Positions 26,490-57,803 of a DNA stretch of 64,000 bases are shown here, piece after piece. Where the stretch lies: assembly GCA_033065855.1 (NCBI GenBank), contig JAVXUO010002652.1, positions 1 through 64,000 on the forward strand, in the 5' to 3' direction. The position numbers and the translations under genes are program-made. Under the pieces are notes generated by a model. That model had not been told where the DNA came from. It did not search any database and saw only the letters and a list, made by a program, of their open reading frames with translations. The DNA is from Escallonia rubra (Eukaryota > Streptophyta > Magnoliopsida > Escalloniales > Escalloniaceae). Positions within the stretch are counted from its first letter, which is position 1, and the number at the start of each line of letters is the position of its first letter.

Positions 26490-26910
26490 CACTACAAGAA
26501 AAAACTTTTTTTTTGCAACGAACTTTTAGGGACGGAATGGATTCCGTCGCTAAAAGTCACCTTCAGCGACGGAATTAACCGTCGCTAAAAGTCCGTGGCA
26601 AGAAGTCTTTAGCGACAGGCTCATCCATCGGTAAAAACCTTCATCGACGGCTTTTTACCTGCGAAATGTTAGCAACGGCCTTTCCGTCGCTAAAACTTTC
26701 TAAAAAATTTCTAATTTTCTATCATCATTTAAATTTTTTTTAAGCGACAGAATAATCCCGTCGCTAAACATTCTGTTGCTAAAAATTATTTTAGCGATAG
26801 GAATTTTCCGTCGCTAAAAATGACCGTCGCCTAACGTCTTAAAAATTATGCTTTTAGCGACAAACTTTTAGCAACGAAATATTCCGTCGCTAAAAGTCGT
26901 GTCTTAGAAG

Positions 26911-28189: not shown

Positions 28190-29398
28190 TCAGAGTTACC
28201 GCCAAAATGGCATGCTAAACTAATAGCAAATTAGCCATTAATCTAAGTAAACCAAATTAACCCTAATCAAACCGTAAGTATCCCTAATCTAACCAATTAA
28301 CAGTAATTAACCCCGAGTAGCCCTAATTGAACGAATTAACCGCAATTAAACCCGATTAACCCTAACTAAACCAATTAATTGTAATTAACCCTGATTCAAC
28401 CTAATTGAACCAATTAGCCCTAATTAATCATGATTTACCCTAATTGAACAAATAAACCCTAATTAGCCCTGATTAATCCTAATTGAACCAATTAACCGTA
28501 ATTAGCCTTATTAAACCTATTTAACCTATTTGAACCAGTTAACCTTAAACCCTAAATCGTAATTAAATCCTAATTAGCCCCGAATAAACCCTAATTACCC
28601 CTAACGAAGCCTAATTAATCTAACTGCATCCAAATTACTCGAATTACATCCGAATTAGCCTAATAAGCCTGAGTACATCCAAATTACTCGAAGTACATGT
28701 TAGAATTATTTTGATTATAGTTTTTGTGAAATGTCCTCTATTCCATTAAATGCAAAACTTACATGCCTATGTTTATGTACATTCTACATAGTACACTAAA
28801 CCCTCAATTAATCTATAGTGTCCATTTTTCATCAATCCCCCATGCCCTGCATGAGTGCTATATTCTTGGCATTTGCTGTGACTTGTTGAATTATTCTGGT
28901 TATAGTTAATTAGAATTTTTTTTTCAAGTTATTATGATGTCGAAGTGTTCTTTCTGATTTTCAGAATTGTTGTAATGTGAAGTTTTAAAAATTGATGCCT
29001 TAGCCTCTTTGATTGGTAGTTGGGAGTCACATGGAAATTGAATCCCTCCACAAGGGGTAACCGTAATTTTGTTTTTTTATTAACCCCGATTAACCCCTAA
29101 CACATCCCTAGGTAATCCTAATTAACTATAATTAACCCTACTTAACCATGATTCACCCTAATCAAACCTAGTTAACCATGATCAACCCTATTTAACCCCG
29201 ATTAACTGTAATTTACTCTGATTCACCCTAATTAAACTTAATTAACTATTATTAAACCTAAATAACCCCGATTAACCCTAAGTAAACACAATTAACCATG
29301 ATTAACCCTAATTAGCCCCCGATTAACCCTAATTAGCTCCGATTAACCCTCAATTCACCCCGATTAACCCCTAACACATTCCTCGGTAACCCTAATTA
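28190..29398. repeat. Degenerate CCCTAATTAA arrays of outer CACTA (left part)
   Basis: 28190-28700 and 29080-29398 consist of loosely repeated TAACCCTAATTAA-like units; related arrays lie at 42993-43560 and 44590-44930. About 28727-28870 between them resembles the 3' end of LINE copy B (AATCCCCCATGCCCTGCATG), probably a short LINE insertion on the minus strand. The arrays are not true telomere repeats, since the spacing is irregular and the unit differs. Confidence 0.7.
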
Positions 29399-29770
29399 CA
29401 CTACAAGAAAAATTGGCTATGGCAGCGGTCAAAAACTGCTGCGATAGATTGAACATCCGCTGCAAAAGGCTTTCCCAGCGACTCCCGACCGCTGCTATAG
29501 GCCTCGCTGCCATAGACATACAGCAGCGGTCAGACACCTTTACTGCAGCGGTCAACCGCTGGTACATTGATTCCAAAATTGGCGCTTTAAAGGCCTCCTA
29601 TGGCAGCGGCCAATCTATGGCAACAGTCTGCGACCGCTGCTATAGGTGGTCACCTGAATTTAAATTTGAAATTATGGCAGCGGATTGCCACGCTGCTGTA
29701 ACATTTTTATATGATTCTTTTTTTTTTTTTTGTACATAATGAAAAACTTATGGCAACGCACATTGACCGC

Positions 29771-30092
29771 TGCTAAAGATATGCAATTTTTTTTTTAATT
29801 AATTATAGAATACATATCGACTCAATTAAAGATATGTAGCCAACTCATCCAACCTGTTAAAAAAAGTAACGTACTTACTCAACTTTATAAACAAGCCAAA
29901 AAAAATATCAAAGCCATGCACTCAAATGTCATTGCATAAGACATTGTATATTTACAAACAAAAGAAAGGTCAAGTTGCTGTAGACTTTACATTAACTATG
30001 AAAATTTTCACTAGAAACACCTTCTAAGGGGGCAAAAGGCCTACAAATATAGCTGTTCAAAAGATGAAACGCAGCGCAATTTGCAACATCAA
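29771..30092. other. 3' flank of the TnpA-like gene, no gene seen
   Basis: AT-rich DNA between the subterminal repeats and the last TnpA-like exon. It would hold the terminator and polyadenylation site of the minus-strand transcripts. Confidence 0.4.
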
Positions 30093-31108
30093 TCAGTCAC
30101 TACCATTACTCGATCTATTTGCATTTGCCTCCACATTAGCCTGTGACATAATCAAGCAACCATTAGTGTACAACTCAGTTACTCCCATGAAGTTCGTTTA
30201 ACTTTCTTAAGTTAATAAAAATGTAAAAACTAAGTTTCTCAAAGTGAATGATCATAAAATTCAAACACCCAGCAGAAAAGAGACCGGAACAAGTCTTGTT
30301 AGAGATTATTGGTAAGAGTGTGAACATAATCGAGCGCTTGTTGAAAATACCATGGTTGAGCCCCTTGTGAAGCATTAGACCATGCTCATGCCTCATCATA
30401 TGCGCTTAACTAATACTATATTGATAGGTACTTTTGGACCATAGCATAACCGTTACAAGAATCGTTCAAGGGGGAACAAGTCAATGCATACAAGATGATA
30501 TGCAGTATATATGCATGTAGCTAGCTAGGTGACTAATTTATGCATACAATATCTTATGAGTATTTCAGCAATGAGACTAGAGCACCATGTCAAGGATTAA
30601 ATGTGTGGGTGTCCTTGATCAACGAAAAATCACACAACTCATCTCCAATTCTTTAGGAGGCATGAAAGGAGAAAGATTTTCAAGAAGAACAAGAGATGAC
30701 CAAAATGGTGAAGCATAACCATGTAGTTCAACTGCTTGGGAATTTTTCTAAGACTACAACACCACTGGAAGATACCCAGGACCAGAGCATTTAGTAAAAG
30801 AAGCACACATGCATGGGTGCTTTGACAATGCAGATCACCCAATTCATTTCCAACCTGTCTTGCTGACTCTCAGGGGCGAAGCAAAGCACAATATTGACCT
30901 GTTTTACATCTCAATTTAGTCTACCCTTTTGTGCATTGGATGCCGGCACACGTGGTTGTATCGCATGCATAACAATCAATAGTTTAATTGACGCAGAAAT
31001 TCAATGTCTAGCATTACTCCTCATCAAAAAGAGCACACAGTAATCTGCTGCATTTTTCTCAAAAGGGGGAGGGAGATGACTGTCTTAAAGGTTTAAGAAG
31101 AGAAAATA

Positions 31109-31342
31109 TCCATATGCAATCACTATGATGCAGTTGGAATTCACATAGTAAATCACTATGTTGTGTGAGTGTACCTGACTAGAACTAGTAGCATAGTCTG
31201 TGAAACTGTTCCCAGTAAGTCATTATCCATATGCAATCACTATGATGCAGTTGGAATTCACATAGTAAATCACTATGTTGTGTGAGTGTACCTGACTAGA
31301 ACTAGTAGCATGGTCTGTGAAACTGTTCCCAGTAAGTCGTTC
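31109..31342. repeat. 117-bp tandem duplication over the end of TnpA-like exon 6
   Basis: 31109-31225 and 31226-31342 are almost identical (CATATGCAATCACTATGATG starts each). The unit contains the 3' end of exon 6 and its splice donor, so the transcript has a second donor copy 117 bp downstream. Confidence 0.9.
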
Positions 31343-31769
31343 AAGAGCCTCTTCCATTTTCGCCATTCGTGCTTTCATTTCATTCATTCCGGCCAGCTTC
31401 TCCTTAAGAGAACAAAGTTGTTCTTGCATTTTCACATTTTGGAAGAACCCCATGTGTTTGAGATATTGGCCATGGGCCCCATTGCCCTCACCCTACCATG
31501 CCGGTCCTTACCCATAACCTTGGAAAGAATATCATTTGGACCGCTATCATCCTCGGGCAATGAGGCCTCATGTTGGAGTCTTTCGATATCATCCTAAAAG
31601 ATAAACAAAAACGAAGTCATTATCAATAAAAGATTGAGACCGAAAGATAAAGATGGGAATGCAAGGTGGTGGCGGAGACGGCAATAAGGTTGAGGAGTTG
31701 CACCCCCATCCGGTGATGGAGCAGCTTGCTGCCGTTCAATATTGCATCAACAGTCCACCTCCATGGCGT

Positions 31770-31805
<36 letters not shown>

Positions 31806-33988
31806 CCTATCTCCCTTACGTTGTTACATAGTATTGTGGTCTTTTCTAATAGTACTTGAGAGAGAGGTAGCCAAAAACTTATTAAGAAACATTGTTATAA
31901 TTTGCATACACACGTACGTACGTGCATTTTAAAAAAACTACCATCATCCGTCTCATTTTCAAAAGTTCAGCAAAAATTGCCGTTGTCATAGAAGAACACT
32001 ATTCGTTATTTGCATTGCATAATGCTGATTGAACGTGCAACGCAGTTCTCTTCAAATATAGTAAACGTAAACCAAACTGTTTTTGCAAAGTGGGAATAGT
32101 AACATAGTCATTACCAGGAAATAACAAAGTTATTATGCAGTCAACTTTCAATCAGTCGCTCATTACATTATGCTAAAATTGATAGCGATATTTGTGATAT
32201 TTAGCGATTTTTTAACCTTAAGGACAAAAATTTGTGAGTGTGAATGTCAAAGACTATTCATTTAGCGCACAATAGGAAGCTTCTTTATCTTGTCTTAATA
32301 CTCTTTCACTCAAGTAATCTGCATTTCTATGTCTTGTAAGGTGTCAACTATGTCAAGTTCTTGCTTACACATTATATTCAACTACGAAACTTGCCATATA
32401 AACACCGTATGTTTCTCCATTACATTTTGAAAATAAATGCATCATAATGAAAAGCAAGTGAATCAACTTACAGCCTTATTACGCGCTTGCGGGAGGACAT
32501 CTCCTTTAAGTTTCTTTGATTTGCGACTCACAACCCACATTGTTGCCCTACCTGGCCTAACATTATGTGTCTCAAACTTCAAAACCACAATAAAATATGA
32601 CTACATTAAGATTTAGTCCCAAAAAGGAGTATACTAATGTATAACAAGGTAGTAAAAGTTCGTACATATTCTTCCTCCTTCCGCGAACTGGATGTTCGGC
32701 CTAGCGTGTGTGGAATTGCATTGATGCTCGTCGCGTTTTTGCTGTTTAACTTTGCCTCCTTCTGCAATTTAAAGCACATTAATTAGTAGGTATCAAATAA
32801 AAACATGAATTATGTTAACAAATGTAAGTTTAGTGGATACTATAACTTCTTCACGCTGCCAATAGCTCGCCAAGGTTTGCCACTGCAGCCAATCTGCCCT
32901 TTTTTCAGTTGCAACAAGTGCATTTGAAGCTGGTATATCATCCGGCTTGAAGAATTTCCTTTTTAGCGAGCACTTCCAATCTTTCCAACGGGTGTTAAGA
33001 GTGCGCATTATAGCAGTTTTAGCAAGAGGATGATCCGTTGTAAATCTCTTCTGTGACCACGAGTACAATAGCATCAAAAAATTTCAAATAGCTTCGGATA
33101 AATTTAGGAAATGCATAACTTAATAATACCTCGATCTCCTCCCAAGCCTTTTCTTTGTCCTCCTCTGGAACATCAGCCCACTTGGTGTAAGTAATAGGTA
33201 ACAGCTTGCTCGAACGTGCCACACAACCTATAAAGGTACCAAGCTCATGAAATGCACCGGTATTAGCATGACCCCAATTGTCATACCCTACATATTTTTG
33301 CGTCTCCCTCACCCATATTTCAGCCCCTCTAGTGGGGCCTCGCTTTTTTGATGAACTAGAACCTGCAAGAAAAGAACATGTCCCATGAAATCAATAAAAC
33401 AATTTGTAGTCCAATCAGGTTTTCTGGCAGCATGAGATCTTGTTGATGAGCAAAGCATAAGTGAGTATAACAGCTGAGGCATAAGGTCACAAACATTCTT
33501 AAGCATGGCAGACTCTGTTAGGCCATTCTCTTAAAGTTTAAATTTTCAGAGGTGCTGGTAATTTAACATCATAACTGAGTTCTCACAGGATAGCTATGGC
33601 AATTAGTATACTAAAATACGAATAGGATGGTTGAGATATAGATTTCATTTCTGGGTTCAAATGCATAGAAAGAGAAATGATAATAAACTAGTTTTCATCG
33701 TGTGTGTGTCTTCAGAAGTTTAAAGGTCGACCCAGCGTAGGTACATATGATTGATAAGCTTCAACATCCTGTGAGATCAAATAATCAGCAACAAACTGGG
33801 GGTTGCAGTTCATGAACAGAGAAAATGAAACAGGGGACTGATTCAGTTTAAGCTACTAGCATGGCATGCATGACTTAAAAGTACAAGAATGAGGAGGCAT
33901 TGAACATTGTGCTGAGGATTATAAACAAGATAATACATCACACCCTACAGTTTAGTGCAGTGTACTTGAAGGATTTGTTGACATTTCC

Positions 33989-34405
33989 AACAACTTGATT
34001 AATATTAGTGCAGTGTACTTGCAAGGCATGCAAGGTGATGAACTCAGGACGGCGTTCACGGCTCTAATGTACCATGAGATGACTCATGTATTTCAATGGT
34101 CAGGGAACTTTACAGCCCCGGGTCCGCTGACTGAAGAAATTGCCGACTACATGGTCCTAAGAGCTAAACTAAACGGGACTGGCTTTGCTCTACCTGGGCA
34201 AGGTGATAGGTGGGATGAGGGATATGAAGTCACAGCTCGATTTTTAGAATATTGTGATAGCCTCATGACTGGGTTTACAGCTGCACTGAACAACAAAATG
34301 AGATATGCTTATAGTGAAGATTACTTTGTTCAGTTGTTAGGGAAGCCAGTTGATCAGCTTTGGTCAGAATACAAAGCTAAGTATGCTCCGGGATTATTAG
34401 TGTAA
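33989..34405 (+). pseudogene. Captured plant basic secretory protein (BSP) fragment
   Basis: An open frame of about 136 codons resembling the C-terminal two thirds of the BSP family, secreted proteins linked to defence with a metalloprotease-like fold. Blocks: YLQGMQGDELRTAFTALMYH, HEMTHVFQW (an HExxH-type zinc motif), EEIADYMVLRAK, GQGDRWDEGYEVTARFLEYC and DQLWSEYKAKYAPG. The signal peptide and N-terminal part are absent. It lies inside intron 1 of the TnpA-like gene, on the opposite strand, so transcription of the transposon gene makes antisense BSP RNA. The frame is uninterrupted, suggesting recent capture. Confidence 0.8.
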
Positions 34406-35286
34406 TGGTAGTACTCCTGTTGGGATATGATTAAGAAGAGATATACAAGGGTACCCTAAAGTAAAATTTTATTGTTTGAAACTAGTTTTCCGATATTGCA
34501 CCAAGCTTTACATTTTCTGCAAAGAAAATCTAATTATGCTGCTTACAAGCACATATAATTAATATGTTTAACTAGCAGGCAACAAATCTTAATTACGTAT
34601 GATGGGTATTAGAACCTACCTGACACCAAATACAGCCAACAACCCACTAATCAAATCCTTGCAAAGGCTGGGTTTGATTACTGGGAGAATTCACAAGTTT
34701 CTTTTCGGAAACTTGTGAATTCTCCCACTTGGAAGTTCCCCAATGGGTTTTTCTCTAGTTCTCTGTTGTCAATTGTCATTTGGATGTTTGTTGAAATACT
34801 CATATGGGCAAGATGCTTTGCAAAGGAAGCTTATATCTACTGCATGAACACACAGGTTATGGGAAAAGAGACACAATATTATCTTAACCCAATTGCTTGT
34901 TGTTACCCGTTAATTCTGTAACTTACGTGTTTCTTTCCAAGGGCGACTCCACAGGGTACTATACTCTAAAGGTAGACACAAAATCACTGATAAACAAGAT
35001 ACACAAATCTGTCACCGCATAATCAGATAACCAAAGGAAAATGAAAACAATTTCCAAATCATAATTAGAAGAGAGTTCAAGAAATCTGATTATTCACTAC
35101 TTGATGCGAGCCTCTTGGTATTGCCCAACGTATTTGATCTAGCGCTAGCTCAAACTCACTATTGCTGTGTAATTACCTTCTTATGACAATATAGATAGCA
35201 ATCCAATCACCCCAAACATGGACTACCAATTATGACAATATAGATAGAATAAAATCAGATTTTTCCTTCTCAAAACTCAGCTTTAC
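34406..35286. other. Rest of TnpA-like intron 1, with a 19-bp hairpin
   Basis: A perfect inverted repeat GGGAGAATTCACAAGTTTC with a TTTTC loop lies at about 34682-34724. Nothing else is recognised. Confidence 0.5.
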
Positions 35287-35711
35287 CTGTGGATGGTGGG
35301 TCACTTTGTGACCCCTCAAGATGACTGGTCATCTCAGCATCAAGCGCCTCATCCTCGATGTTGGGTGTATCGGTAATCGCAGCGACATTGGCATCAGTTT
35401 GTACCTCGACATTGTGCTGCTCGTTGATCTGCTCGTTGATCTGGGGAGAATCTCGTGATGGCACTTGTGCGCTGCAACCAACTCGTGCTCGAAGCTGCCG
35501 TCTATTAGCCATGGAAACACTATAGACACAAATATACGTATAAACATAACCAAAACTGGAATAGATAATGACTGAAAGAAAAATTGAAGTTAACCTTTAA
35601 TTAAGAGACTACAAGAAACAAAATAAACGAACAAACAAAGATATGATTCATTTAGAAGTTTTCTTCAGAAATAGATAGTACACAGAAATAAATAGCAAGC
35701 AGAAAAACAAA

Positions 35712-38700
35712 TCAATCACTACTCATAGAATCACTCTCTGCCTCTTCATTTTCATTTTCATTTTCATCTTCATCTTCCTCTGCCACTTCCTCCTTTTCCT
35801 CATCCTCGTCCTCTTCATCGTCCTCGTCCTCATCTCCTTCCTCCTCTTCGTCCTCCTCGTCATCTACAAAGGTTTCAAGTCTTCGCTTTTCAGCCCCACC
35901 ACTTTCTAGAGAAGTGTCAAGTCTATGCCTTTTAGTCCCTCTATCTATAGCTTGCTCCCTTGCTTGTGCGTTTTTGGACCTTTTTGCTGGACGTTCCTCG
36001 ACTATTTCTGTTTCAATGTCATTTCTGGCCCAAGTGATGTCACCTATTATATTTTCTGCATCTTGAACAACATGTGACTCACTTGAGGAAAGGGATGATA
36101 ACTCCTCGTGTTCATTGTCTTCCTCTTCCACATCTTCACAAAAGTCTCTTGGCCTTGTTCGAATAACCACACGCCAACCACTGTCCCTTGGATGATCCAC
36201 AAAGAACAGCTGCTCCACTAAGAACAGCTGCTCCACTTGAGAGGCCAACACAAATGGTTCCTCTTTATAAATAAATCTCTTCGAGTTAACAAGTGTAAAT
36301 CCATATGGATCTGTTTTGATCCCTGTATTTCGATTCACAGTGTCGTACCATTTGCATTTAAAAAGTACGACCTTTCCAGCTCCAAAATAATCTAGCTCAA
36401 TTACATCTTCCAAAACTCCAAAGTACTCTAATAAGTCTTCTGCAGGATTTCTATCTCTAGACGATGAATAACCACGTGTACTAGCAGAAACAAACACTCC
36501 GCTATTTTGTGTTTTTCTTTTTAGCTCGAGGCGCTCAGTGTGAAACCTATATCCGTTTATCAAATAGCCATTGCCTCTCTTCACAATATCATTTGGACCA
36601 CGTGCAAGGGCAATTATTTCCTTTGAAACCCCAGCTCTCAAAGTTTTTACCTGTGCAATTGCAAATCAAGTAATAAGAAATAACTCATAAATGCAAATTC
36701 AGAAAACTAATCTTGAATGCATAAAGAGAACTCACGTGACCACTAAACCATTTGGCAAACTCATTTTTTAAGCAGTTATCAACTTCCCTTGGCGTAGGTT
36801 TCTTTCTACGTCTTCCTAGCATCATTGTGCACACACTTTGACATAGGCTGCAATGACATGGTATATTAACATATTATCCATATGCCAAAAATAAATATAT
36901 TAACAATACTTTGAGAAAAATGCTTACCTTCGATACTCTTCTAACTCATCACAGTTAAACAACACGTAGCGATGTGCCATCTCTATATCCTTCACATCTA
37001 GATGACTAATAGAAGGAGTACCTAAAAATCTACCTTTGCAGCAAAAAACGTACAAACTTCTGGTCACTTCTTCAACATATCCATCTTCATTCCTTCCCGG
37101 TCGAGTCCATGCTGGATGAGAACCTTCTAAGTACATTGAGCAAAATCTTACACACTCTTCCGCTAATAACCCTTCTGCAATCGACCCTTCGGGGCGGCTC
37201 TTGCATCGAATATAGCCTTTTAACTTAAACATGTATCTATAATCATGTAATATAAACTACATTAGCCTCTAAGTGTCATATAATATCAAATAAAAAATAA
37301 TGAAAAGTATTTTACCTTTCAAATGGATACATTTGGCGATACTGTACAGGTCCAGCGATCCTTGCCTCCTCGGCAAGATGAACAGGCAAATGGACCATTA
37401 TATCGAAGAAAGCCTGTGGAAATATCATCTCAAGATGACAAAGTGTCAATACAATCTTCCTATTAAGTCGTTCAAAGTCTTCTACTCGGTAATTTTTAGA
37501 GCACAATTCTTTAAAGAATTGACATATGTCAACTACAGCAGAGCAAACATCCTCTGGCAAAACCCCTCTTATTGCTATCGGAAGAATTTGATGCATTAGG
37601 ATATGGCAATCATGACTCTTAAGACCTGAAATCTTGCCATCTTTTTCAAGTACGCAACGGCTAATATTAGACGAGTAGCCATCAGGAACCTTGACATTCT
37701 TCAACACATGGAGAAAATCCTTTTTCTCGTCCTTAGACATTGTGAAACGTGCAGCAGGCAACTTATACTTGCCTACACCAACTTCAACTGGATGCAGTTC
37801 TTGTCGTATGTTCATATCTTGCATGTCTAAGCGAGCTTTAAGAGTATCCTTTGTCTTCCCTTTGATACCCAACAATGTCCCAAGCAGATTATCACAGAAA
37901 TTCTTCTCAATGTGCATTACGTCCAAATTATGGCGTAAGATGAGAAACCTCCAATATGGCAACTCAAAAAAAATACTTTTTTTCCTCCAGTTATGGTTAG
38001 GATCCTTAGGCACAGTAGCTTTACTAGCCTTTCCAAACGTAACATTGATGTCGCTCACCATTTCAAGCACATCAAATCCCGAACGAATAACCGGACGTTC
38101 TCTATACTCACATAGCCCGTTGAATTTTTTTTTGTCGAGTCTATATATGTGATCTGGATCTAGAAAAGATCGGTGTGCCATATAACATTGCTTACCACGT
38201 AATCTACAAGATCGAGTGTTTTCTTGACAAACTGGACACGCCAACTTGCCCTTCGTGCTATAACCTGCCAACATTGCATAAGCTGAGAAGTCACTAATAG
38301 TCCACATGAGCATTGCACGCATCTTGAAGTTAGTTTTGGTGAAGGCGTCATAAGTTTCAACACCATCGAACAAGACCTTGAGCTCCTCAATTAACGGCCT
38401 AAGATACACATCAATATCATTACCAGGGGAAGTTGGACCAGGTATTAGCGAAGGCATAATGAAAAATCGTTGTTGCATACACATTCCCGGAGGCAAGTTA
38501 TAAATAACCACGGTAACTGGCCATATGCTATGACTTGCTCCGTGGCGAAAAGGATCCATACCATCAGTTGATAACCCGAGTCTTATATTACGAGGGTCTG
38601 AAGCAAAGTCTGGATTTAAGCGATCAAAGTGTTTCCAAGCTTCTGAGTCAGCAGGATGGCGTTGTCCTTCGTCTTTTCGACGTTTTTTATCATGCCATAT

Positions 38701-39531
38701 CATTAATTCAGCCGTCTTTGGTGACATATATAGCCTTTTCAGTCTTGGTATCAAAGGAAAATGACACAGTTGCTTGACAGCTATTTTTTTTCCTTCTTTA
38801 CAAGGTCTAGATTCTCCTTCCTTTTCTGCCTCCCTTTGAACCATCCTCCACCTTGATTTCTTGCACACCCTGCACGAATTCAATGTGCTATCTTCCTTCC
38901 AATACAATATACAATCATTGGGACAAGCGTCAATCTTATCGTAGCTGAATCCCAAGTCACCAATCATCTTTTTTGTTTCATAAAAGTTGGCAGGCAACGT
39001 CTCACCGTTAGGAATTATTTCTTTTAACTTACCAAGTAGCAAATCAAAGGACTTGTCTGTCCATTTACTGGTGCATTTCAGATTAAATAACCACACAATA
39101 AATGATAGCTTTGTCTCAGTCTTGCACCCCGAATATAATGGTCGATCTGCATCGCTCATGTATTTATAGAAGTTTGCAACTTTAACACAAGGTTCCTCCG
39201 ATCGGCTGGTAAATATGTCATTTACCATTTCATGCATAGCTCCACCACCACCAATGTTGAGCTCTACATCATTTTCCATGCGATTTGAACGAGAAGACGA
39301 GCCTTCCCCATGAACTGTCCATACTGTATAATTGCTCATAAATCCCCTTATTATTAAATGTTCTTGCACAATTTCACGCGTGCGGAACATGCTATTAACG
39401 CAATCTCTACACGGACACAAAATCTCTCTAAAGATTGTTGCCGTATTTGCAAATGCAAAATCCAAAAACATGTCGACTCCAGCACAATAAGTATCAGTTT
39501 CCCTAGAGTGCGTCATCCATACCTTGTCCAT
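35712..39531 (-). CDS. TNP2-type CACTA transposase, four exons, apparently intact
   Basis: The catalytic transposase of En/Spm (CACTA) elements. Exons: 37316-39531, 36928-37236, 36736-36847 and 35712-36650; every join is GT-AG and in phase, giving 1191 codons before TGA, a usual length. ATG 39531 (MDKVWMTHSR) is chosen because the open frame upstream reads only a hydrophobic AT-rich stretch. Regions: N-terminal transposase-associated zinc region with CPCRDCVN (about residues 39-46), TNP2 core with STDGMDPFRHG, IWPVTVVIYNLPPGMC and DFSAYAMLAGYSTKGKLACP, DUF4218-like PIAIRGVLPEDV and LCHLEMIFPQAFFD, then DUF4216-like VNSKRFIYKEEPFVLASQVE in exon 4, and a very acidic C-terminal tail. An 18-base in-frame duplication gives EQLFLVEQLFFV. 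It lies just upstream of the TnpA-like gene in the same direction. Confidence 0.9.
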
Positions 39532-40277
39532 ATTATCTTTCTTGTATGAAGAAAGCCAAAGCAGAAACACAAACAACAATAAGAGAAATGTAATTCCAAA
39601 GATATCATGATGACAATAAACTATGGCCTAATATGAGAAATCTCCAATATGACAACAACAACAATTGATGTGCAAAAATCTAAGAAACTAGAAACAACCA
39701 AATAATGTGTAATCAGTTGTTAACCTCAAAAAATCAAGCATTTCCTTTCAAACCCTCAAAGGATATGTGGAAAGAGTACTGAAAATGAGACTCTTTAATC
39801 ACGAGACGATTATATTGCCTACTTAAATTGTTTTTTTTTTCTAATCAGCTGTGACTAGGAAATCTAAATTGAGTCTAAATTTATTCTAGAGGCCAGCAAT
39901 TTATTCGGTAATGCTTTTCTTATACCTAGATTAAGGATTGTACTGCCCCATTTTGCATGAGTTCTTTAGCAAAACGAAAGCTAACGCGTACAAACTGAAA
40001 TTTTTACATGTCTGTGTTTGTTGCTCAGACTGAAAAAATTGACTTCACGTATTTGATATAGAGGTTCTTCATAGTTTTTCAGCAGACGCATGAACACTTC
40101 GAAATGCAAGTGAAAAGATTAATAGCCGACTACACAATAGAAAGCCTTTATTTTTAGGAACAACACTAATAGCTGGCCAAGTACAACATCTATTTTTAGG
40201 AACAACTCAAGTTGGTGCAACTGTTGATCCTATGACTATTATTTTTAGGAGTAACCACATCCATATACAATCTTATT
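39532..40277. other. 5' flank of TNP2, no gene seen
   Basis: AT-rich, with a poly-T run near 39830. It presumably includes the TNP2 promoter, but no convincing TATA box position was fixed. Confidence 0.4.
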
Positions 40278-40783
40278 TTGGGAAAACTCTATTGCGACCA
40301 CTATGGCACAATGCGTATTCAGGGGAACTGTAAATATTCGTGTAAGCTGAAATTTAAGGAGCAGTCCATTATAGACCGAAATCCTCACCAGGTGAGTCTC
40401 TCTCTCCCCCCCCCCAATCTCTCTCTCTCTCCCTCCATCCCTCCCTCCCCGTATGTGAGTGTGTGTGTCAGCGCGGTTGTGTTGCAGATGAGTAAAATAA
40501 CAAAAAAAAACTAACTGCCCACACTTTACAGGGACACCTGTTTAAGTTCAATGAACGTGATATTTTGCAGGTACAAGGCATTGTACAAGGAAGCAATGGA
40601 AAAACTCTGGCAACTCTGTTTGGGAAGTGGGATGAGAGCATGCACTATGTAACTGGAGACTGCTCCAGGAAAGGAAAAGGGTTTGAATCTCTATTAGATG
40701 CTCATTTGCTCTGGAAGAGGAGCAAGCCTCCCCAGTTCCCCACTAGATATAATCTGTCACGTTTTGCTATTACATTGAATGAA
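40278..40783 (+). pseudogene. Captured oxysterol-binding-protein-related (ORP) gene fragment, two exons
   Basis: Exon a ends at 40390 ([16 protein letters not shown]...DRNPHQ) with donor GTGAGTCT. Exon b begins at 40571 after ATTTTGCAG ([56 protein letters not shown]) and ends near 40783. The two join in phase exactly where ORP genes do, so genomic DNA including an intron was taken, not a cDNA. The parent family moves sterols or phosphoinositides between membranes. The start and the last part of the domain are missing. Confidence 0.8.
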
Positions 40784-42430
40784 CTCAAAAATTACATTTG
40801 CAAACAGGGTCACTCTCCACTGATTTTGTTGATGGGTCCATGTAACAACACATTTTAATGCCTATATTCAAAAGAGTAGCATTACTAAGAGAATGTTGGC
40901 TAGGAAACGATGATAGAGATCTGATAGATATCTTGTACGCCACGAGTCAAGGCACCCATCACCCATTAGAATTACTAATACTGCCTTGGTGTCAGACTAT
41001 ATCTAGAACAACTAAGAGGTAAAGATGAACCACAATATATAGAAACAGAAAGAAGGAATACCTTATGCGTGGAAGGAGTTAGCTGGATCAACCTCTTAAC
41101 TACCCGAAATACAATGCTTTCTAGCGGCAGTAAAATTAAAACCTGCACAAGTGATTACAAAGTAATGCTTAAATTTGTGCATGCCTTGGGAGGGCATGCC
41201 TCACATAATACCAGCTGGACAAGTGGGAAATAAGATGCCTCAATTAATATCATCTCTCCAGATTCCTTTCCGTTGCACCAAAAGAATCATCAATCAACCA
41301 TATCAACTTTATGGTGTGTGCACGTATGGTGTTTTCGTGTGTGTGCGTCTGTTATGTGCAGTGGCGGAGCCAGAAACACTGCACGAGGGGGGCACTCAAC
41401 AGACATTAAACTCGAATGATGAAAATGTAATTGCTCGCTAGAACCCCCATATGGATATGGTCAAATGGGTACAGGTGGAATATTTTTGCAATTAGCAGCG
41501 ATTTTATAGAACCATTATGAGCTCGTGACTGAATCCTCAATTTTCTTATGTTAATTTATTTTTCCATCTTTGTCACTTGTCGTAAAGACTTTTTCGACAG
41601 ATGGGTTAAAAAACTTACAAGGAAACAACAATATTAGCATAATGGAGACAATAAGGTTGTTAATCTTTTAAGACTACTATGAATTCACAAACTAACAAAT
41701 GTCAAACTACTATTAATGAAGACAAAATAGGTCAATTTGACTCCACGAAGATTAGGCTCTTTTTTTGCCACTCTAATCAATTCTATTTGATCCATCATTA
41801 TATTTGAGACACAAAAATATAGGTAAAAACGCAGCCCTTGTAAAGATTCAGATGTTTTTCAAGGCTCTATATCATGTTTAACTTCTAATTATAGCATTAA
41901 CATCATAGTCAATTTGACAATGAAACAAACCAAAGGAGGGGTAACCCATCTTAAATCTATCTGGGTCTTTCTTCTCTGTTATCTCCACTTTTCGAAATCT
42001 ATATACATACATCTGGAAAAGCTGAAAAACAAGGAAGGGAAGATAAGGAAATCATTGGTGGACACGAAAAGATTGGATAATGGGTTGAGATGAATGGAGA
42101 TAGAGAGATCATATTTGGAGTTTGCTGGCCGCCGATGGTGTATTCAGCAGCGGGGATGGACTGCGCCGAACCTGCAAGTGAAGGTGGATGCAGTGACCGG
42201 TGGATTATTCCATGTCGGCGGCAAGGCCGGGCACCATTGCTGGGTAGTCTAAACGAGGGAGGAGGAGGCAGCAGGTGGGCACGTGCCCCCCGCTGCCTCC
42301 ACTACTGGTTATGTGTGTGCTCTTTAGAGATAGGGAGATCGAGGGATAGAATTGAGAGAGGGAGATCGAAATATGAGTTTGAAGTAACCTGATTACTTTT
42401 GCGCCTGATTGTTTGAGTCCTGCGATTGTG
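40784..42430. other. Inner CACTA right interior, no gene recognised
   Basis: Contains CAGTGGCGGAGCCAG at 41360, a sequence often found at plant transposon ends, but no partner end was found. A GC-rich frame at 42090-42392 has no known motif. Confidence 0.4.
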
Positions 42431-42565
42431 TTTGCGTTTGATTGTTTGCGTCTGATTGTAGAACGGAGAGAGGGAGATCACGCGTTTGATTGTTTGCGTC
42501 TGATTGTAGAACGGAGAGAGGGAGATCCCGCGTTTGATTGTAGAATGGAGAGAGGGAGATCGAGA
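42425..42565. repeat. ~60-bp tandem repeat (about 2.5 copies)
   Basis: GCGTTTGATTGTTTGCGTCT plus GATTGTAGAACGGAGAGAGG recurs at about 42431 and 42482, then partly at 42532. Confidence 0.85.
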
Positions 42566-42699
42566 GTCGATTTGTTTGTGTATATGCTTCTGATGTGTGT
42601 TTGTGTTTGTATTTGCATCAGATAGAAGAACATAACCAGATTGGGGAAGGTAAGTGATTACGTGAGCTCGTGGGATAAAGGGAATGAAAAAAAAGTGGG

Positions 42700-42992
42700 A
42701 GTGTCTATGGCAGCGGTATATCCGCTGCCTAGCTTTTCTTATCCGCTTCTATTGGATTTCAATTGGCGCGGAGATTTCGCGGGTTTTTGGAGCGTAAAGT
42801 TTCAGCCGCGCGGCAGCTGTGGGCAATTTTTTTACGAGCTATGGCAGCGGTGAAAAGTAGCCGCTGCTGTAAATCGTCTATACCAGCGGCATCTAATTCC
42901 GCTGCTATAAACCGCTGCTATATATTACATATGCCAACGGTTTTTTAGGCCACTGCTATAGAGCGCTGCTATAGGGCATTTTTCTTGTAGTG
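42700..42992. repeat. Right subterminal repeats of inner CACTA
   Basis: Many direct and inverted copies of TATGGCAGCGGT / ACCGCTGCTATA, mirrored at 29410-29770. In En/Spm such motifs are the binding sites of the TnpA protein. Confidence 0.85.
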
Positions 42993-43249
42993 TTAACCCT
43001 AACTAAACTTTAATTAAACCCTATTAACCATAATTATCCTAAGTACAATCGACTCCCTAACTATATACTTAAACCCTGGACTCAACCACAGGTGGAACAA
43101 TATCAACTCTTCGAATGAACTCAACGAATTCTAAAGTGACTCAATCATAATTAACAATAGTTAAGTCGAATTAGCCGTCATTAGCATTAACCCTATTTAG
43201 CTCGAATTAGCCTTATTAGCTCTAATTGGCTCTAATTAGCCCTAATTAA

Positions 43250-44870
43250 AACTGATTAACCCTAATTTACTGTTAATTTAATCTCTAATCAGCCCTAATC
43301 ACCGTTGATTAACCTAATTAAACTCTGATTGTCCTGATAAATCGTAGACAAGCCCTAAATAAACCTAATTAAGGTAACTAACTGTAATATGTTCTAATTA
43401 GGCTAAACTAGTCCTAAGTAGCCCTAATTAATCCCTGAATAACACTAATTGAGTATAATTAAACGTAATTAACTGTAATCAACCCTAAATAGCTTGAATT
43501 GCCCTAATTGCTCCTAATTAACACATTAACTCGACATTTTCACCTTAATTAGCTATTATCAATTTAGGGTCGGTACAAAATTATTTCATTATAGTGAACT
43601 TGAGCAGATAATTAAATCATCATTCCTAAATCCTTCAATATCTAACGATCCACCAAATCGGGATTCTTAAGTAAACCCAGTGCTTTTGGTTGGTAAGTTA
43701 TGGACTCAAAATATTTTCTTAGCGCTTCATGTTGAACCATCTCGTCTAAGATCTTATCTTCTGAGACTTCAGATAACACTTTTGGCTTGCAACTCTCCAT
43801 GTCTGTAGAAGAGAAGACTTTCTGAGACAAATTAAAGGTCTTTCTCAGCCTTTCGCAGACATTTTCTGCCCTCCATTGTTCCTGCGGTAATTTGATGGTA
43901 TACATACACAGTTTTCTTCTGACCAGTCCTGTATGCCCGACATATGGCTGGCCTTTCAACTGATGGGGTCCAACCAATATCAAGCAAAACAACTCTCGAC
44001 GCCCCAACTAAGGCTGATTAGGGCTAATTCGAGCTAAATAGGGTTAATGCTAATGAGGGCTAATTCAAGCTCAATGAGGTTTGTAAGGCAAGCTATGTGG
44101 GGCATAAATTTGGTTGGGGCGTCGAGATTTGTGTTGCTTGATATTGGTTGCAATCCATCACTTGAAAGGCAAGCCATATGTCGGGCATACGGGATCAGTC
44201 TGAAAAAAACTGTGTGTATTTATCATCTAATTACCTCAGGAACAATGGAGGGCAGGGAATGTATGCGACATGCTGAGAAAGACCTTTAATTTGTCTCAGA
44301 AAGTCTTCTCTTCTGCAGACATGGAGAGTTGCAAGCCAAAAGTGTTATCTGAAGTCTCAGAAGATAAGATCTTAGACGAGATGGTTCAACATGAAGCGCT
44401 AAGAAATTTTTTTGAGTCCATAACTTACCAACCAAAAGCACCGGGTTTACTTGAGAATCCCGATTTGGTGGATCGTTAGATATTGAAGGATTTAGGAATG
44501 ATGATTTAATTCTCTGCTCAAGTTCACTATAATGAAATAATTTTGTACCGACCCTAAATAGATAATAGCTAATTAAGGTGAAAATGCCGAGTTAATGTGT
44601 TAATTAGGGGCAATTCGAGCCTTTTAAGGTTGATTACAGTTAATTGCGTTTAATTAGACTCAATTAATGTTATTCAGGGATTAATTGGGGCTAATTCGGG
44701 CTAGTTGAGCCTAATTAGAACATATTACAGTAATTACCCTAATTGGGTTTATTTAGGGTTTGTCTACGATTTATCAGGACAATCAGGGTTTAATTAGGTT
44801 AATCAGCAGTGATTAGGACTGATTAGAGATTAAATTAACAGTAAATTATGGTTAATTTTTAATCAATTTT
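43250..44870. repeat. ~1.6-kb inverted repeat with a short spacer
   Basis: Left arm about 43250-44010 and right arm about 44078-44870 match in reverse complement with modest divergence. The inner ~450 bp of each arm is a SNF2 gene end (next entry); the outer parts are CCCTAATTAA-type sequence, also paired (for example TTAACACATTAACTCG against its complement). The spacer is about 70 bp. A transcript through it would fold into a long hairpin. Confidence 0.9.
43642..44479. pseudogene. Captured CLASSY/DRD1-like SNF2 C-terminal fragment, present twice head to head
   Basis: Plus-strand copy 44104-44479, minus-strand copy 43642-44000. The protein blocks are VLLDIG.NPS.ERQAICRAY (helicase motif VI region), KKTVCIYHLITSGTMEG, then EDKILDEMVQHEALR, FFESITYQPKAPGLLENPDL and VDR with a stop. 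This matches the C-terminal end of plant SNF2 proteins of the CLASSY/DRD1 group, which act in RNA-directed DNA methylation. Both copies have frame changes near the middle, so no protein is expected. The stop codon position is conserved, so the captured piece includes the natural end of the gene. Confidence 0.75.
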
Positions 44871-44936
44871 TATTAGGGTTAATCGAATTTTAAATTAACA
44901 ATAAATTAGGGTTAATCAATTTTAATTAGGCAACGT

Positions 44937-45226
44937 ACGCGGCCTCCCTGGTAAGACTGCAACTGCCATGATAGGAGTGTCCCCACCCCCCGCTACATCT
45001 CCACAGACGCAGACACCGACCATGGAGCATTCGTTGTTACATGAGGACGAGGTCTGTCGCATTGCTGCAGAGGTTTATAGGAGGATCAGGGCACATAATC
45101 AGGTACAACCACTATATACGTTTAATTAGTGAACATTATACGATTGTTATCAAGATTAATGCGTTTCTGCCTTTACATGCAGGGCACTGCTGCTGGACAT
45201 GCCCCGGGACTCGCTGAACCCTGATC
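44937..45226 (+). other. Possible last exons of a decayed outer-CACTA gene
   Basis: An open stretch ending MEHSLLHEDEVCRIAAEVYR, RIRAHNQ (donor GTACAACC near 45102) can be joined to GTAAGHAPGLAEP and a stop after a TGCAG acceptor near 45181. GC-rich unlike its surroundings. The family is not recognised; a remnant of a TnpA-like gene is a guess. A poly-C run follows at 45267-45283. Confidence 0.35.
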
Positions 45227-45419
45227 AGCCCTTCCCCTCCTAGTACTTTGTATCCCGCTCCCATTCCCCCCCCCCCCCCCCCCGCCTTATACCACGCTCC
45301 CCTACTCTATTAATGTACCCCGCTCCCGTGCCCTCTTGAATTTTGTATACATTTTATTGTTGGATTGTTTATGGATTGTAATTACAGGTTTAGGTATTAA
45401 AAAAATTTAAATATAGTTT

Positions 45420-45821
45420 GAATTTTAGCGACGAACTTTATTCCGTCGCTAAAAGTCTAATTATTTTAAGGGAACGAGTTTTTATGACGGACGCTAAAGT
45501 TCTAAACGACAAACTTTTAGCGACGGAATTTCGTCGCTAAATATTTTACGTAAAAAATTATTACCGAAAAAGAAAATAAATTAAAATACAAAAAATAGAA
45601 TTAGTGACGGAAACTCCGCCGGCAATTGTGTTTGTTTGCCCGTCGTTGAAGGTGGACTTTAGACGACGTATTGTAAAAAGCTGTCGCAAAACTTTTAGAG
45701 ACGGGGTTGTAGGCAACAAAGTTTTAGTGACGGGTTGTCTGTCACTAAAACTCTTTTCCGTCGGATTACGAACTTTTAGCGACGGAATTATCCATCGCTA
45801 AATGTCTTTTTTCTTGTAGTG
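45420..45821. repeat. Right subterminal repeats and end of outer CACTA
   Basis: Repeated TTTTAGCGACGGAA and CCGTCGCTAAAAG, matching 26500-26910, then CTTTTTTCTTGTAGTG at the tip. Confidence 0.9.
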
Positions 45822-53034: not shown

Positions 53035-55995
53035 AGAATATTCTTTTAGATTTCTCATATTTATTTACTTACTTTATTCTTTTACACTACTCGGCATATC
53101 CATGTATGCGTATCGCTTTTGTAGCTCAAAATCAATGTAGAAGTAAAATAGATATAAAAGTAGAATATAAAAACACATATGGTTGATGATGTTCTTATTA
53201 TGGTGTGACCCCATTGGCAATCCTCTAATGTTTAATGTAATATTTGATTACACTGTTACAAGTGATTTGTACAGTCTAAAATCTTGAAAAACACATACTC
53301 CTCATTTTATTCGGGTTATAATAAAGAAACTAAATCCACACTTATATTAAATCAGAGTATTAAAAAGTACACGTGTTTGTAATAACATTATGCACTCGGT
53401 TTTAGTTACCACTTGCTCTTTATTTCAAGCCTGTATAGCTAATAAAGTAAGGAGGTCAAGTTAGTAACTGAAGAGTGACATAAAATTATAATATCCCACG
53501 TATTGATAATTGATGCTAAATATAATTTTGTAGGAATTTTCACCGGTTACCCGCACTTTTTTAGTGTCATCACTCAAATAGTACTAGCATATTCAGTGCC
53601 CTTAATTGTTGTAATATGATAATTCAAGCCCCTTGCTACATTTACAAGAGAGAAAACAAAATAAAAAAACAAACAACAATGATTTTGCTAACAATACCTT
53701 TGCGGATGCTATCAAGAATTGTAATAACAACCTCGGTTAACCCCTCCAAACTAATGTATGTTTCTTTAATTACGTGAACACTCTCAACAACCTAGAATTT
53801 GAATCGTCACTCTAAAGAGAAACTTTCACGTGAACTTTTATAAGATACTATAAGGTAATATTGACGTTTAACACTCATTCGATCTGAATATTTTGAAGCT
53901 ATCATTGTAACTACGTAATTCAAATTAAAACCTAAAACGGTTGTTTTGAAGAGCGGCAATGAATTATGGGATTGTACTTGTGGTGGTTAAAGAGTCGATT
54001 CACAGAGATAGTCATGGGTGTTTGTAGTGCGTTTGGGATCTTTAGGAGATGGCGTGGTGGTTGAAATTTCATATAGTGATAGTTATTGCCTTAGAGAGCT
54101 AATTGATTATGGAATGTGATGATGATTAATGGCCTGGTTATGCTTGGCATGGCTTTGTGATCGAAAACAGATGAATTGTTGATTGTGGCTATGAAGGCAC
54201 AAATGTCACCGGTGGTAGTTATAGCCATAGAAACCAACAAAATACATGACGACGTTGATAGTCATCTTCTATATTCTTCATTACTCATTAGAGGAGAAGA
54301 CGTTATTGCCTGAGGTGTAGAGTATTGAAACTATTGATGGTGATTGTGGAGGAGTAGATATGGCCATAGTAGAAAGAGATGTGATACCGATGCTAGGGAA
54401 CTAGCAAAAGCAAGAAGGGGATTAACGATGACGGTCAAGAGAGTAAGCCCGAGTGCCGAAATGAAATAACCCTGTGAGTACAAGAGCTAATGTGTACTTA
54501 GTCCTTCGTTCCAACACTGAGCATTAATGGTAAACCAAATGTTTTGGACGTCCAATTTCGTTAGTCCATTTTCCCACGAACTCGAACTAACTCTTGATCA
54601 TTTGTACTATTAACACCCACCAATACTATTACGAGAAGCTTCTTCTTTAGTTAAAACAAATTAGAAACAAGAAAACTTGATATGTTGCATGAACAGTGTT
54701 ACAAAAATTGAGACCTATCATACATAAGTATTAAAAGTCTCCATCTATCGTCAACTTTTTCGCTTACAATTATATTCCTTGTAGCAGTAAGTTTTAACAA
54801 ATAGTTCCATGCGAGTGCACTTCATGCCAACAAATCCAATTAAATATATTGTTGGTTAGCATAAAAAGTTTTCTATGTGGATTGAGAATGACTTTGAAGA
54901 CTATGTGCCGAACTATTTCTTTGAAGATGATATACTATCAAATTAGCTGACAACAATAAAGAGGTATGCAAGTATTGCTTAACAAATACTATATTATCCA
55001 AAATTTGTATTTTTTACCTTCATTAGTTTCAATCAGGTTTGGAGGAACAACTACGGTGGCTCAAAAAAAGTAGCACATAAAGAAATTCAAAAATTAAAAA
55101 AAAGCCTTAAAATGATGATAATGCATATGTTACATTAAGCACCCTCAATACCAAAGTTTTAAAGAATCATAATTATAATTTATATGACCCGTCGGTATGA
55201 AAATTTGAACTTAGGACTTTAAGATTATTCGTCAAGGCCCTTTGTCACTTGAACGCCTTGGGGTTAAGTTAGATAATACGTTTAATAATTAGTTTTTCCC
55301 CACTTTCATTAGAGTTGAAAAATATAGTAGGCAATTCATTTTCATGACATCATCTAAAATTGTTAGTTGAGAGTTTTAACTAACTTATCTTTGTGACTTG
55401 CTTTAATTTGTTTTGAAAAAAATTTGGCTGCTATTCCGATTGAAAGAATCTTTCTTCTACTCCTTATATAATGATAATTGATGATCGTTATATGTTTCAA
55501 GAAAGACTAATTTGTTTTGAAAAAAATCGTGCGGCTAAAAATTGTCGTTGAAAGTGTTAGCAGGAAAGTCAATAAAAACATTCAGTAACTATTAATTGTC
55601 ATTATATACGGGGTTCAAGAAAGACTCCTATAAACCCGGGCAACAACCAAAGTTTGTTCATTTGTCTTTTCCTTTTTTAGTTATAAAAAAGGCCTATTTT
55701 TATTTAATCCCGTACATTTTACACGGGTCCATTAATTAACTGGTCATTACTAACTTAAAGCAGTGCCCCTCATATATATAAATAATATTACGGATACCAT
55801 ATCGTATCCGTAATATTATTTATATGTATGATTGACGAGATCGGCAGTATAATATATTACATACGCCATTATTAACAAATAAAGTTCCTTCTGACTGTGG
55901 ACTTTTGAAGTTCCTTCTTAACCGATCACACCTTCATTCCCTATAAGAAACACATCTTCTACTACCCAACTTCATCCTTTGCTCTGCTTGACCAT
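53035..55995. repeat. Second copy of the ~3-kb CYP716 upstream region
   Basis: Direct duplicate of 47520-50316, immediately upstream of the complete P450. Differences from copy one include an extra block near 55430-55650 and the palindrome at 55776-55825. Confidence 0.92.
55776..55825. repeat. Perfect 22-bp-arm palindrome upstream of CYP716
   Basis: Arms 55776-55797 and 55804-55825 (AATAATATTACGGATAC and its complement at the core) around CATATC. It lies about 170 bp before the ATG and is absent at the paralogous place near 50010. It could be a transposon footprint or a cruciform. Confidence 0.85.
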
Positions 55996-57803
55996 ATGGA
56001 TCTCACTCTCTCATGTCTACTGCTCTTTGGGCTACTCTATGCATCTTTCTCTTTATTCTTCAACTTCCGTAAAAAGTCCCCCCCTGACCAGAGATATCCT
56101 CCTGGCAATACGGGTTGGCCATTTATCGGAGAATCGCTTGAATACGTCGCCTCAGGCAGGAATGGCACTCCCGAAAAGTTCGTTAGAGAGAGGATGGACA
56201 AATTCTCACCGGAGGTATTCAAAACCTCCTTTGCCGGAGAAACCGTAGCAGTATTCTGTGGAGCAGCGGGTAACAAGTTTTTGTTCTCCAACGAGAACAA
56301 GCTTGTGGCCTCCTGGATGCCATCCTCATTCCTCAAGATCATCAATGCAAAAAACAGCGAAACCAACGGTATCTTACAGAAAACAATGCTGAGAAGTATC
56401 CTCCCGCAGTTCCTCAAGCCGGAAGCACTTCAAAAGTACGTGCCAATCATGGATCGCATGGCCATGCAACACTTGGAGAGAGACTGGAGTGGTGCATCCA
56501 ATAAGCAAGTTAAGGCTTACACCCTAGTGAAGAAGTTCTCATTCGAGACGGCATGCCGGCTCTTTATGAGCGTGGAGGATCCCAATCAGGTGGCGAGTTT
56601 CTCAACCAATTATGGCCTCGTCGCCGCCGGGCTCTTTGCCGTGCCAATGAACTTCCCTGGCACGACTTTCCGTCGTGCAATAAAGGCCGCTGATCACATC
56701 AGGTACGAGCTGTCGCCTATCCTCAAGGAGAGAAGGAGGCAATCGAATGAGAAAACAGATATGGGAACTCCCGACCTTGCTTCCCACTTACTGCTTTCCA
56801 CGGATGAGGATGGCAAATTCTTGACAGAGATCGAGGCTGCTGACCTGATCTTGGGCATACTTTTCGCGAGCCATGATACAGTGACCGCTGCTATTACTTT
56901 CGTTGTTTGCTATCTTGCAGATCATCCTGATGTCTATGCTCAAGTCTTCAAAGGTAAATCCCAATCTCAGGGTGAAATTCATGCTTTATTTCTTTCTTTA
57001 CTCTGTATCTCAAACAAATCGAATCATTGACATGCACCTGCAGTTATTTTAATTTAAAGCCAATGTTGAAATTCATGCTTTATTTCTTTCTTTACTCTGT
57101 ATCTGAAATTCATGCTTTATTTCTCCTGTAACTAGAGCTGTTTCCTGACAAAGTTAACTGACTGGCTTCCATTTTCCTTAAACTTGGTTTATCTTCGAAA
57201 TAGAACAAACGGAGATTTCGAAATCCAAAGGACCAAGAGAGGGGTTGAATTGGGAAGATGTCCAAAAGATGAAGTATTCTCGGTGCGTTCTAAATGAGGT
57301 ATTGAGGATACAACCTGCTGCTCCAGGAACTTTCAGAAAAGTTATTAAGGATTTCACTTATGCGGGCTTTAAGATACCAAAGGAATGGAAGGTGAGTTTT
57401 CACTATTTCTACATCAAACCTTCTTCAATGATTTTTGCTTCATATTACAGTGCAGTTCCATGCACGTATGGATTGATCCTTGTTGCCATAATCACAATCA
57501 CAGGCCTTTTGGAGCGTTTATTCAACACACAAAGACCCAAATTACTTTCCTAATCCGGAGAAGTTTGACCCGTCAAGGTTTGAAGGAAATGAACCAGTGC
57601 CATACAGTTTTGTACCATTTGGAGGAGGACCCAGGATGTGCCCCGGCAAAGAGTATGCCCGTCTAGAAGTACTGATCTTCATGCATAGGTTGGTCACAAA
57701 GTTCAAATGGGAGAGGTTGAATCCAAATGAAAAGATCATCATTGAATTATCTCCGGTTCCAGTAGATGGTCTTCCGATTCAGCTCTTCCCTCACAAAAGT
57801 TAA
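55996..57803 (+). CDS. CYP716-like: CYP716-family cytochrome P450, three exons, complete
   Basis: A membrane-anchored haem monooxygenase; CYP716 enzymes usually oxidise pentacyclic triterpenes such as beta-amyrin or lupeol, but the substrate cannot be read here. Exons 55996-56953, 57204-57391 and 57504-57803; GT-AG introns, phases agree, 481 codons, the usual length. N-terminal anchor ([18 protein letters not shown]), proline hinge ([19 protein letters not shown]), CYP716-like [19 protein letters not shown]-helix [15 protein letters not shown] (the usual acidic-threonine pair is present as D-T), K-helix E-V-L-R in [13 protein letters not shown]-type FDPSRF and haem loop [17 protein letters not shown] with the Cys ligand. 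No lesion was found. ATG 55996 is confirmed by the truncated copy at 50317. Its promoter region is duplicated 5.7 kb upstream. Confidence 0.93.

Follow-up and report, generated by a model that had tools for sequence, protein, structure and literature searches.

A CACTA Transposon Family of Escallonia rubra Carries a Long Inverted Repeat of a CLASSY1/2-type Gene End

Most examined copies of a CACTA transposon family in Escallonia rubra carry a hairpin of a CLASSY (CLSY) type gene, a host silencing gene type. CLSY is a gene of RNA-directed DNA methylation (RdDM); its proteins direct Pol IV to the places in the genome from which silencing siRNAs arise. One member of the family lies in the window, the whole stretch of 64,000 nucleotides of contig JAVXUO010002652.1 that was analysed. 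The comparisons reported here demonstrate, at the level of DNA sequence, a captured fragment of the gene, a hairpin made from it, the shared origin of the hairpins, their amplification, and the capacity of the arms to match the host gene. Transcripts from such hairpins may act against that gene.

Results

Two CACTA elements, one inserted into the other, surround the hairpin (Table 1). Their ends and their 3-bp target-site duplications, ATA/ATA and TTA/TTA, agree with the outer/inner reading made earlier from the letters alone. The outer element is 5735 bp after the inner insertion is subtracted, and the insertion point is the decamer array of the outer element. The inner element encodes a TNP2 transposase (Pfam Transposase_21, DUF4218, and DUF4216). 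It also has a BSP-family peptidase fragment at 33956–34402 (Pfam PF04450, 1.1e-39), perhaps another captured gene.

Table 1. Coordinates of the nested CACTA elements and of the hairpin parts in the window.
Feature	Position	Strand	Description
Outer CACTA	26490–45821	.	CACTACAAGAAAA/TTTTCTTGTAGTG ends; 3-bp target-site duplication ATA/ATA
Decamer array of outer element, left block	28243–28618	+	
Decamer array, second block	29079–29370	+	the inner CACTA lies between it and the array that starts after 42996
Inner CACTA	29399–42992	.	CACTACAAGAAAA/TTTTCTTGTAGTG ends; target duplication TTA/TTA
Left arm, decamer-array part	43235–43561	-	
Left arm, gene-derived	43562–44011	-	last ~120 codons of CLASSY1/2-type SNF2 gene and a 3'UTR piece; antisense on +
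Spacer (loop)	44012–44109	.	partly decamer array; 98 nt
Right arm, gene-derived	44110–44559	+	sense on +
Right-arm stretch almost identical to left arm	44272–44594	+	with the 4-bp insertion of the left arm; read as gene conversion
Right arm, decamer-array part	44560–44883	+	
Right flank of outer element	44945–45260	+	family probe independent of the hairpin

The outer element shows the termini, the 3-bp target-site duplication, and the subterminal repeats of the CACTA superfamily, the last as TAGCGACGGAAT/CCGTCGCTA-type motifs spotted by eye at both ends. No TNP2-type transposase was detected in the outer element's own parts, where the top ORF has 133 residues of low complexity, and the ORFs of six longer relatives, of which one is flanked by unequal 3-bp sequences, reach at most 175 residues. 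Since none of these holds a long ORF, the outer family appears to be non-autonomous. CACTA ends with two mismatches or fewer and equal 3-bp flanks are present in five of 20 long family loci, and in three of those five the left end can be aligned to that of the window. The array that occupies 28243–29370 and 42996–44930 is of a 10-bp AACCCTAATT type, resembling telomere repeats broken by AATT.

Within the outer element, 43235–44011 is an inverted repeat of 44110–44883, with 710 of 784 columns of the gapped alignment identical (E 0.0). The earlier note had described two head-to-head copies of an SNF2 C-terminal piece inside the outer CACTA, and such copies are there; the spacer, given as about 70 bp, measures 98 nt. 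The description of the arms as a gene end applies to approximately 450 bp of each 775-bp arm, the remainder being the AACCCTAATT-type array. Its ungapped core, 519 nt at 92% identity, exceeds in length all others of the 38 inverted pairs listed in the window. The + strand of 43241–44930 folds at −1213.8 kcal/mol, compared with −380 to −403 for five shuffles, and 735 of its 765 base pairs lie close to the axis of the hairpin. The − strand folds at −1185.6, compared with −345 to −377 for shuffles, with 498 of 758 pairs near the axis. The inverted-repeat structure is far outside chance. An Rfam scan of the window returned no family at gathering score; three matches at E ≤ 1 in 42900–45100 are far under gathering scores and were regarded as chance.

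The arms encode the end of an SNF2 helicase domain, whose best solved-structure matches are a RAD54-like protein (5e-10) and ATRX (6e-9); the best PDB match for the tail of the fragment is no better than E 0.96. CLSY and DRD1 proteins are members of the Rad54-like group. Host genes were searched for in the window's own 566-Mb assembly with an Arabidopsis CLSY1 query; all 37 candidates were scored, yielding 23 matches. C1563 and C2428 share 51% identity with this query, and C2685, C3003, and C1924 share 37%, 38%, and 41/35%, respectively. With this query as the reference, the first two are putatively of CLSY1/2 type and the other three putatively of CLSY/DRD1 type. C1563 and C2428, which share 98.6% across 2.6 kb, may represent two alleles or a recent duplication. 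The source-gene type has the SNF2 ATPase with a helicase C domain of the Rad54-like group, as in the CLASSY family (Pfam SNF2-rel_dom and Helicase_C in the host gene L048), and by this query C1563 and C2428 are nearer to CLSY1 than the other SNF2 genes of the genome.

The fragment agrees with C1563 and C2428 at the end of their proteins, the final residues PDLVDR included. A perfect 21-mer is shared with C2428 by 69 of 74 arms and with C1563 by 56; the fetched 2.2–2.5-kb parts of C2685, C3003, and C1924 each share such 21-mers with 0 of 74. These results support the CLASSY-type identity that had been proposed for the arms. Perfect 24-mers to C2428 occur in 62 of 74 arms and to C1563 in 46. Small RNAs from the arms would be expected to act on the host gene at 1400–1440, 1460–1497, 1562–1653, 1759–1783, and 2507–2532 (numbered on L049 in sense). 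Counted on the alignment, the left consensus arm has 65 perfect 21-mers to C2428 compared with 32.7 expected (162 of 5000 shuffles as high), and the right consensus has 29 compared with 20.8 expected (1263 of 5000 as high); codon constraint alone could cause the clustering. In plants, RdDM can still be started by small RNAs that have as many as four spaced mismatches (PMC7913690), so the perfect-match counts understate the matching capacity.

Comparison of arm and gene, which the earlier note had called for, shows that the consensus arms differ from the present CLSY genes by 11% and 13%. The left consensus differs from the host gene at 50 of 445 sites. Over 120 codons, dS is 0.36 and dN 0.053 for the left consensus, and 0.40 and 0.073 for the right, and a direct capture from the present CLSY genes is rejected by these values. 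Because purifying selection spanned most of the split from the host gene, the values point to a donor that was a functional CLSY copy, related but not identical to the present genes; capture would therefore have come fairly shortly before the burst of the family. Such a donor is not among the 23 matches of the CLSY1-query search in the assembly. Capture from spliced mRNA is possible, since 668 bp of the host 3' region are missing from the fragment, but the joint lies at a GGA repeat, not precisely on a GT-AG pair. Close to their ends, the host CLSY-type genes L048 and L049 contain an in-frame duplication of 21 bp (SEDKILY), which is absent from the transposon fragment.

The hairpin recurs in other copies of the family, where the earlier note had suggested looking for it. 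With an arm as the query against the same assembly, 279 first-look candidates were obtained and 40 scored, of which 34 have both arms: all 20 that were chosen for having two listed arms, 13 of the remaining 19, and the window. The second arm is absent from the stretch fetched in the remaining six (L035, L029, L030, L031, L036, and L037). The last five have the left arm, three of them with loop DNA as well, followed by sequence unmatched to the element or the gene. To guard against bias, the hairpin-free right flank was also used as a query. It gave 693 candidates, of which 40 were scored and 29 of these examined. Both arms are present in 24 of the 29, made up of 14 places already known and 10 of 15 newly fetched ones (in L064 the left arm is a 70% match only, and in L070 the right arm is in pieces only). 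The other five fetched places have one arm (three) or none within 0.9 kb (two). Together the two queries give 44 distinct hairpin places, and, going by the unscored candidates, there are perhaps hundreds of copies. In 20 long loci the inverted repeat is 1301–1776 nt with 80–88% identity, and the spacer ranges from 62 to 98 nt across 20 relatives. No relatives were found in viral_contigs or genome_contigs.

The arms of 21 elements fall into separate left and right groups in a tree (0.984), apart from the right arm of the window, which joins its left arm, and from L025, whose arms were labelled the wrong way round (swapped for the shared-change, C-context, and site-conservation analyses). In a tree of 71 arms rooted with the host gene, from which three short arms of the 74 were excluded, a left-type group of 39 and a right-type group of 31 (0.968, with the right arm of the window) are separated, and L035 stands in a basal polytomy. 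That left and right arms group separately across elements means that the hairpin is older than the burst. L035 is a single-fragment locus that keeps about 40 bp more of the gene and has none of the compared left- and right-arm changes. Its right flank is a more diverged version of that of the family, and the locus is truncated on the left. Because the tree program attaches L035 to the left arms with a zero-length branch (0.904), its basal position depends on the sites compared and on its longer piece of the gene. Between the left and right consensus there are 17 differences in 444 sites, plus 14 gap columns; judged against the gene, 12 changes are derived on the right and 5 on the left. Individual copies lie 3–8% from their own consensus. 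On account of the arm trees, the hairpin-less basal sibling L035, and the consensus differences, the sequences fit one capture, one inverted duplication, and then a burst followed by decay.

The 4-bp insertion shared by both arms of the window occurs in 12 of 21 left arms and, by pattern search and leaving the mislabelled L025 aside, in the right arms of L011, L026, and the window. This distribution rejects a lesion predating the duplication. We take the insertion instead as a sign of gene conversion between arms within a subfamily. The divergence K of 44290–44565 is 0.026, compared with 0.154 and 0.080; selection as its cause was set aside in favor of the same gene conversion.

C-to-T and G-to-A changes make up 524 of 937 substitutions, the window included. 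C-to-T reaches 0.11–0.12 in CG, 0.09–0.10 in CHG, and 0.05 in CHH contexts, with 0.01 for A/T transitions. Decay of this type in all three contexts resembles that of methylated transposons and suggests that the copies themselves were methylated in the past. In 20 elements, the window excluded, changes common to both arms of an element numbered 33, compared with 26.2 ± 4.6 in permutations, 175 of which, out of 2000, were as high. In the same elements, four classes of sites were compared inside and outside gene-matching 21-mers. Three classes changed equally often in both (P 0.22, 1.0, and 0.59), and left-arm A/T sites changed less inside (P 0.018, uncorrected). Divergence from the window copy is 0.083–0.091 in the arms, within the range of the other element parts (0.045–0.188), and the hairpin is therefore without special conservation. 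Overall, the decay after the burst looks near neutral, with no clear compensatory or target-site conservation.

Seven further matches of the CLSY1 query (E 4e-38 to 6e-17) lie in the SNF2 part and contain stop codons. Five were fetched (L053–L057; G000 C1853, C1461, C1123, C1042, and C1358) and are mutually related. None of them matches the outer CACTA. They carry another piece of the same CLSY-type gene, from the SNF2 ATPase part (within gene 3–476), with pieces of the 3' region in three of the five. That piece forms no long inverted repeat in any of them; 54–86-bp direct repeats are present in four. Their consensus has dS 0.24 and dN 0.023. As this is an unrelated repeat family with another CLSY piece, CLSY sequence has been captured at least two times in the genome.

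Discussion

To account for the hairpin, we propose that a CACTA family captured the 3' end of a CLSY1/2-type gene once, that the piece was duplicated once as an inverted repeat, and that the family was amplified with the hairpin in place. Transcripts through the hairpin would fold into long double-stranded RNA, which would be diced to 21–24-nt siRNAs. The host CLSY1/2-type gene could then become the target of cleavage or methylation guided by these small RNAs; with CLSY repressed, Pol IV-dependent RdDM would be weakened while the family spread, to the benefit of the element, and the hairpin would amount to a counter-defence. Taken as a whole, from capture to siRNAs directed at the host gene, the proposal is possible and we adopt it tentatively, somewhat short of calling it probable.

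The gene fragment could also be a mere passenger, captured and then inverted by an aberrant event in a family that spread for other reasons, the hairpin having no effect on CLSY. CACTA elements do pick up gene fragments: five with captured fragments are reported in a 22-Mb maize region (PMC2773423) and several in Chenopodium (PMC8978399). The near-neutral decay suits a passenger, as does the CLSY piece of L053–L057; since that piece has no hairpin, capture of CLSY need not mean use as a hairpin. Against this stand the hairpin in 24 of 29 examined flank-probe places, with a clear single-fragment form seen once only, and the RdDM type of the captured gene. We regard the passenger explanation as a real possibility, though a somewhat doubtful one.

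Alternatively, the hairpin siRNAs may chiefly methylate and shut down their own CACTA family, in the way that Mu killer (Muk) of maize, which derives from MuDR itself, silences MuDR. Muk and the present repeat are both long transposon-related hairpins, and the methylation-type decay across all C contexts and the recurrence of the arm decamers elsewhere in the element would be expected of a self-silencing trigger. The paired sequence of Muk is MuDR-derived, whereas here it consists of host gene and decamer array. Host gene accounts for over half of each arm, and this part matches the CLSY-type genes, not the transposon's own coding sequence from which a Mu killer-type hairpin is made. Moreover, a strong self-silencer is unlikely to amplify as the predominant form, and an excess of C-to-T is usual in plant transposons whatever the trigger. 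Self-silencing is considered unlikely.

Camouflage, or epigenetic conflict, would have the host-gene sequence shield the element, since siRNAs against it would also hit a needed gene. The model is stated in PMC8978399, where Muyle 2021 is cited for it, and a gene from the silencing pathway fits it, but an inverted repeat would be unnecessary and yet is present in most examined members, and the copies appear to have been methylated; we consider it very improbable.

The counter-defence proposal has a stronger form, in which the CACTA family independently evolved a long-hairpin weapon against RdDM from the 3' end of a functional CLSY1/2 copy, repressing CLSY during the burst, and in which the missing donor may itself have been a casualty. 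This form is rather unlikely. If it were true, the weapon and miR820/DRM2 together would show that capturing RdDM genes is a strategy that recurs among CACTA elements.

The outer family has in common with miR820 loci a foldback from an RdDM gene inside a CACTA element. In rice, the CACTA pre-miR820 foldback derives from OsDRM2, which miR820 targets, and counter-silencing has been proposed for it (PMC3459959); both foldbacks come from an RdDM gene and were amplified with the CACTA. The source is a CLSY1/2-type gene here and DRM2 in rice, and the form is a long hairpin here (1.3–1.8 kb in 20 copies) and a miRNA precursor in rice. The 44 places found here compare with 5 in Nipponbare and at least 18 in a BB genome (PMC3459959). 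The present family is known from its DNA, whereas a miR820-like counter-silencing element would also show a discrete 22/24-nt small RNA, target cleavage, and sequence coevolution with the target. If the proposed mechanism is true, plants would offer, besides miR820, another and independently evolved example of a CACTA that works against RdDM, here through a different kind of RNA.

Drosophila TART-A carries captured nxf2 sequence, and its abstract indicates that, like the present family, the transposon took up part of a host silencing gene against which small RNAs could be made (PMC7785250). TART-A differs in being a retrotransposon, in involving the piRNA pathway, and in having piRNA data, and the abstract mentions no inverted repeat of the captured piece (PMC7785250). 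By anatomy, the Escallonia family would be a variant of the miR820/DRM2 and TART-A/nxf2 kind, with putative functional membership. Other gene-capturing CACTAs (soybean Tgm-Express, the Tpn1 family, and those of Chenopodium) all contain host gene fragments, some with tandem arrays; an inverted pair of an RdDM gene is stated for none, among the matches listed. Nor did open-access full-text literature yield a CLSY hairpin in a transposon among the matches listed, consistent with the earlier statement that no hairpin of this kind has been described.

Elsewhere in the window, 7495–9021 is a MULE transposase ORF (Pfam MULE 1.2e-16, SWIM 2.2e-05), 24806–25345 a Myb/SANT-domain stretch (Pfam 4.5e-05, slightly under the cut-off), and 55909–57027 a cytochrome P450-like coding stretch (Pfam p450, 4e-19).
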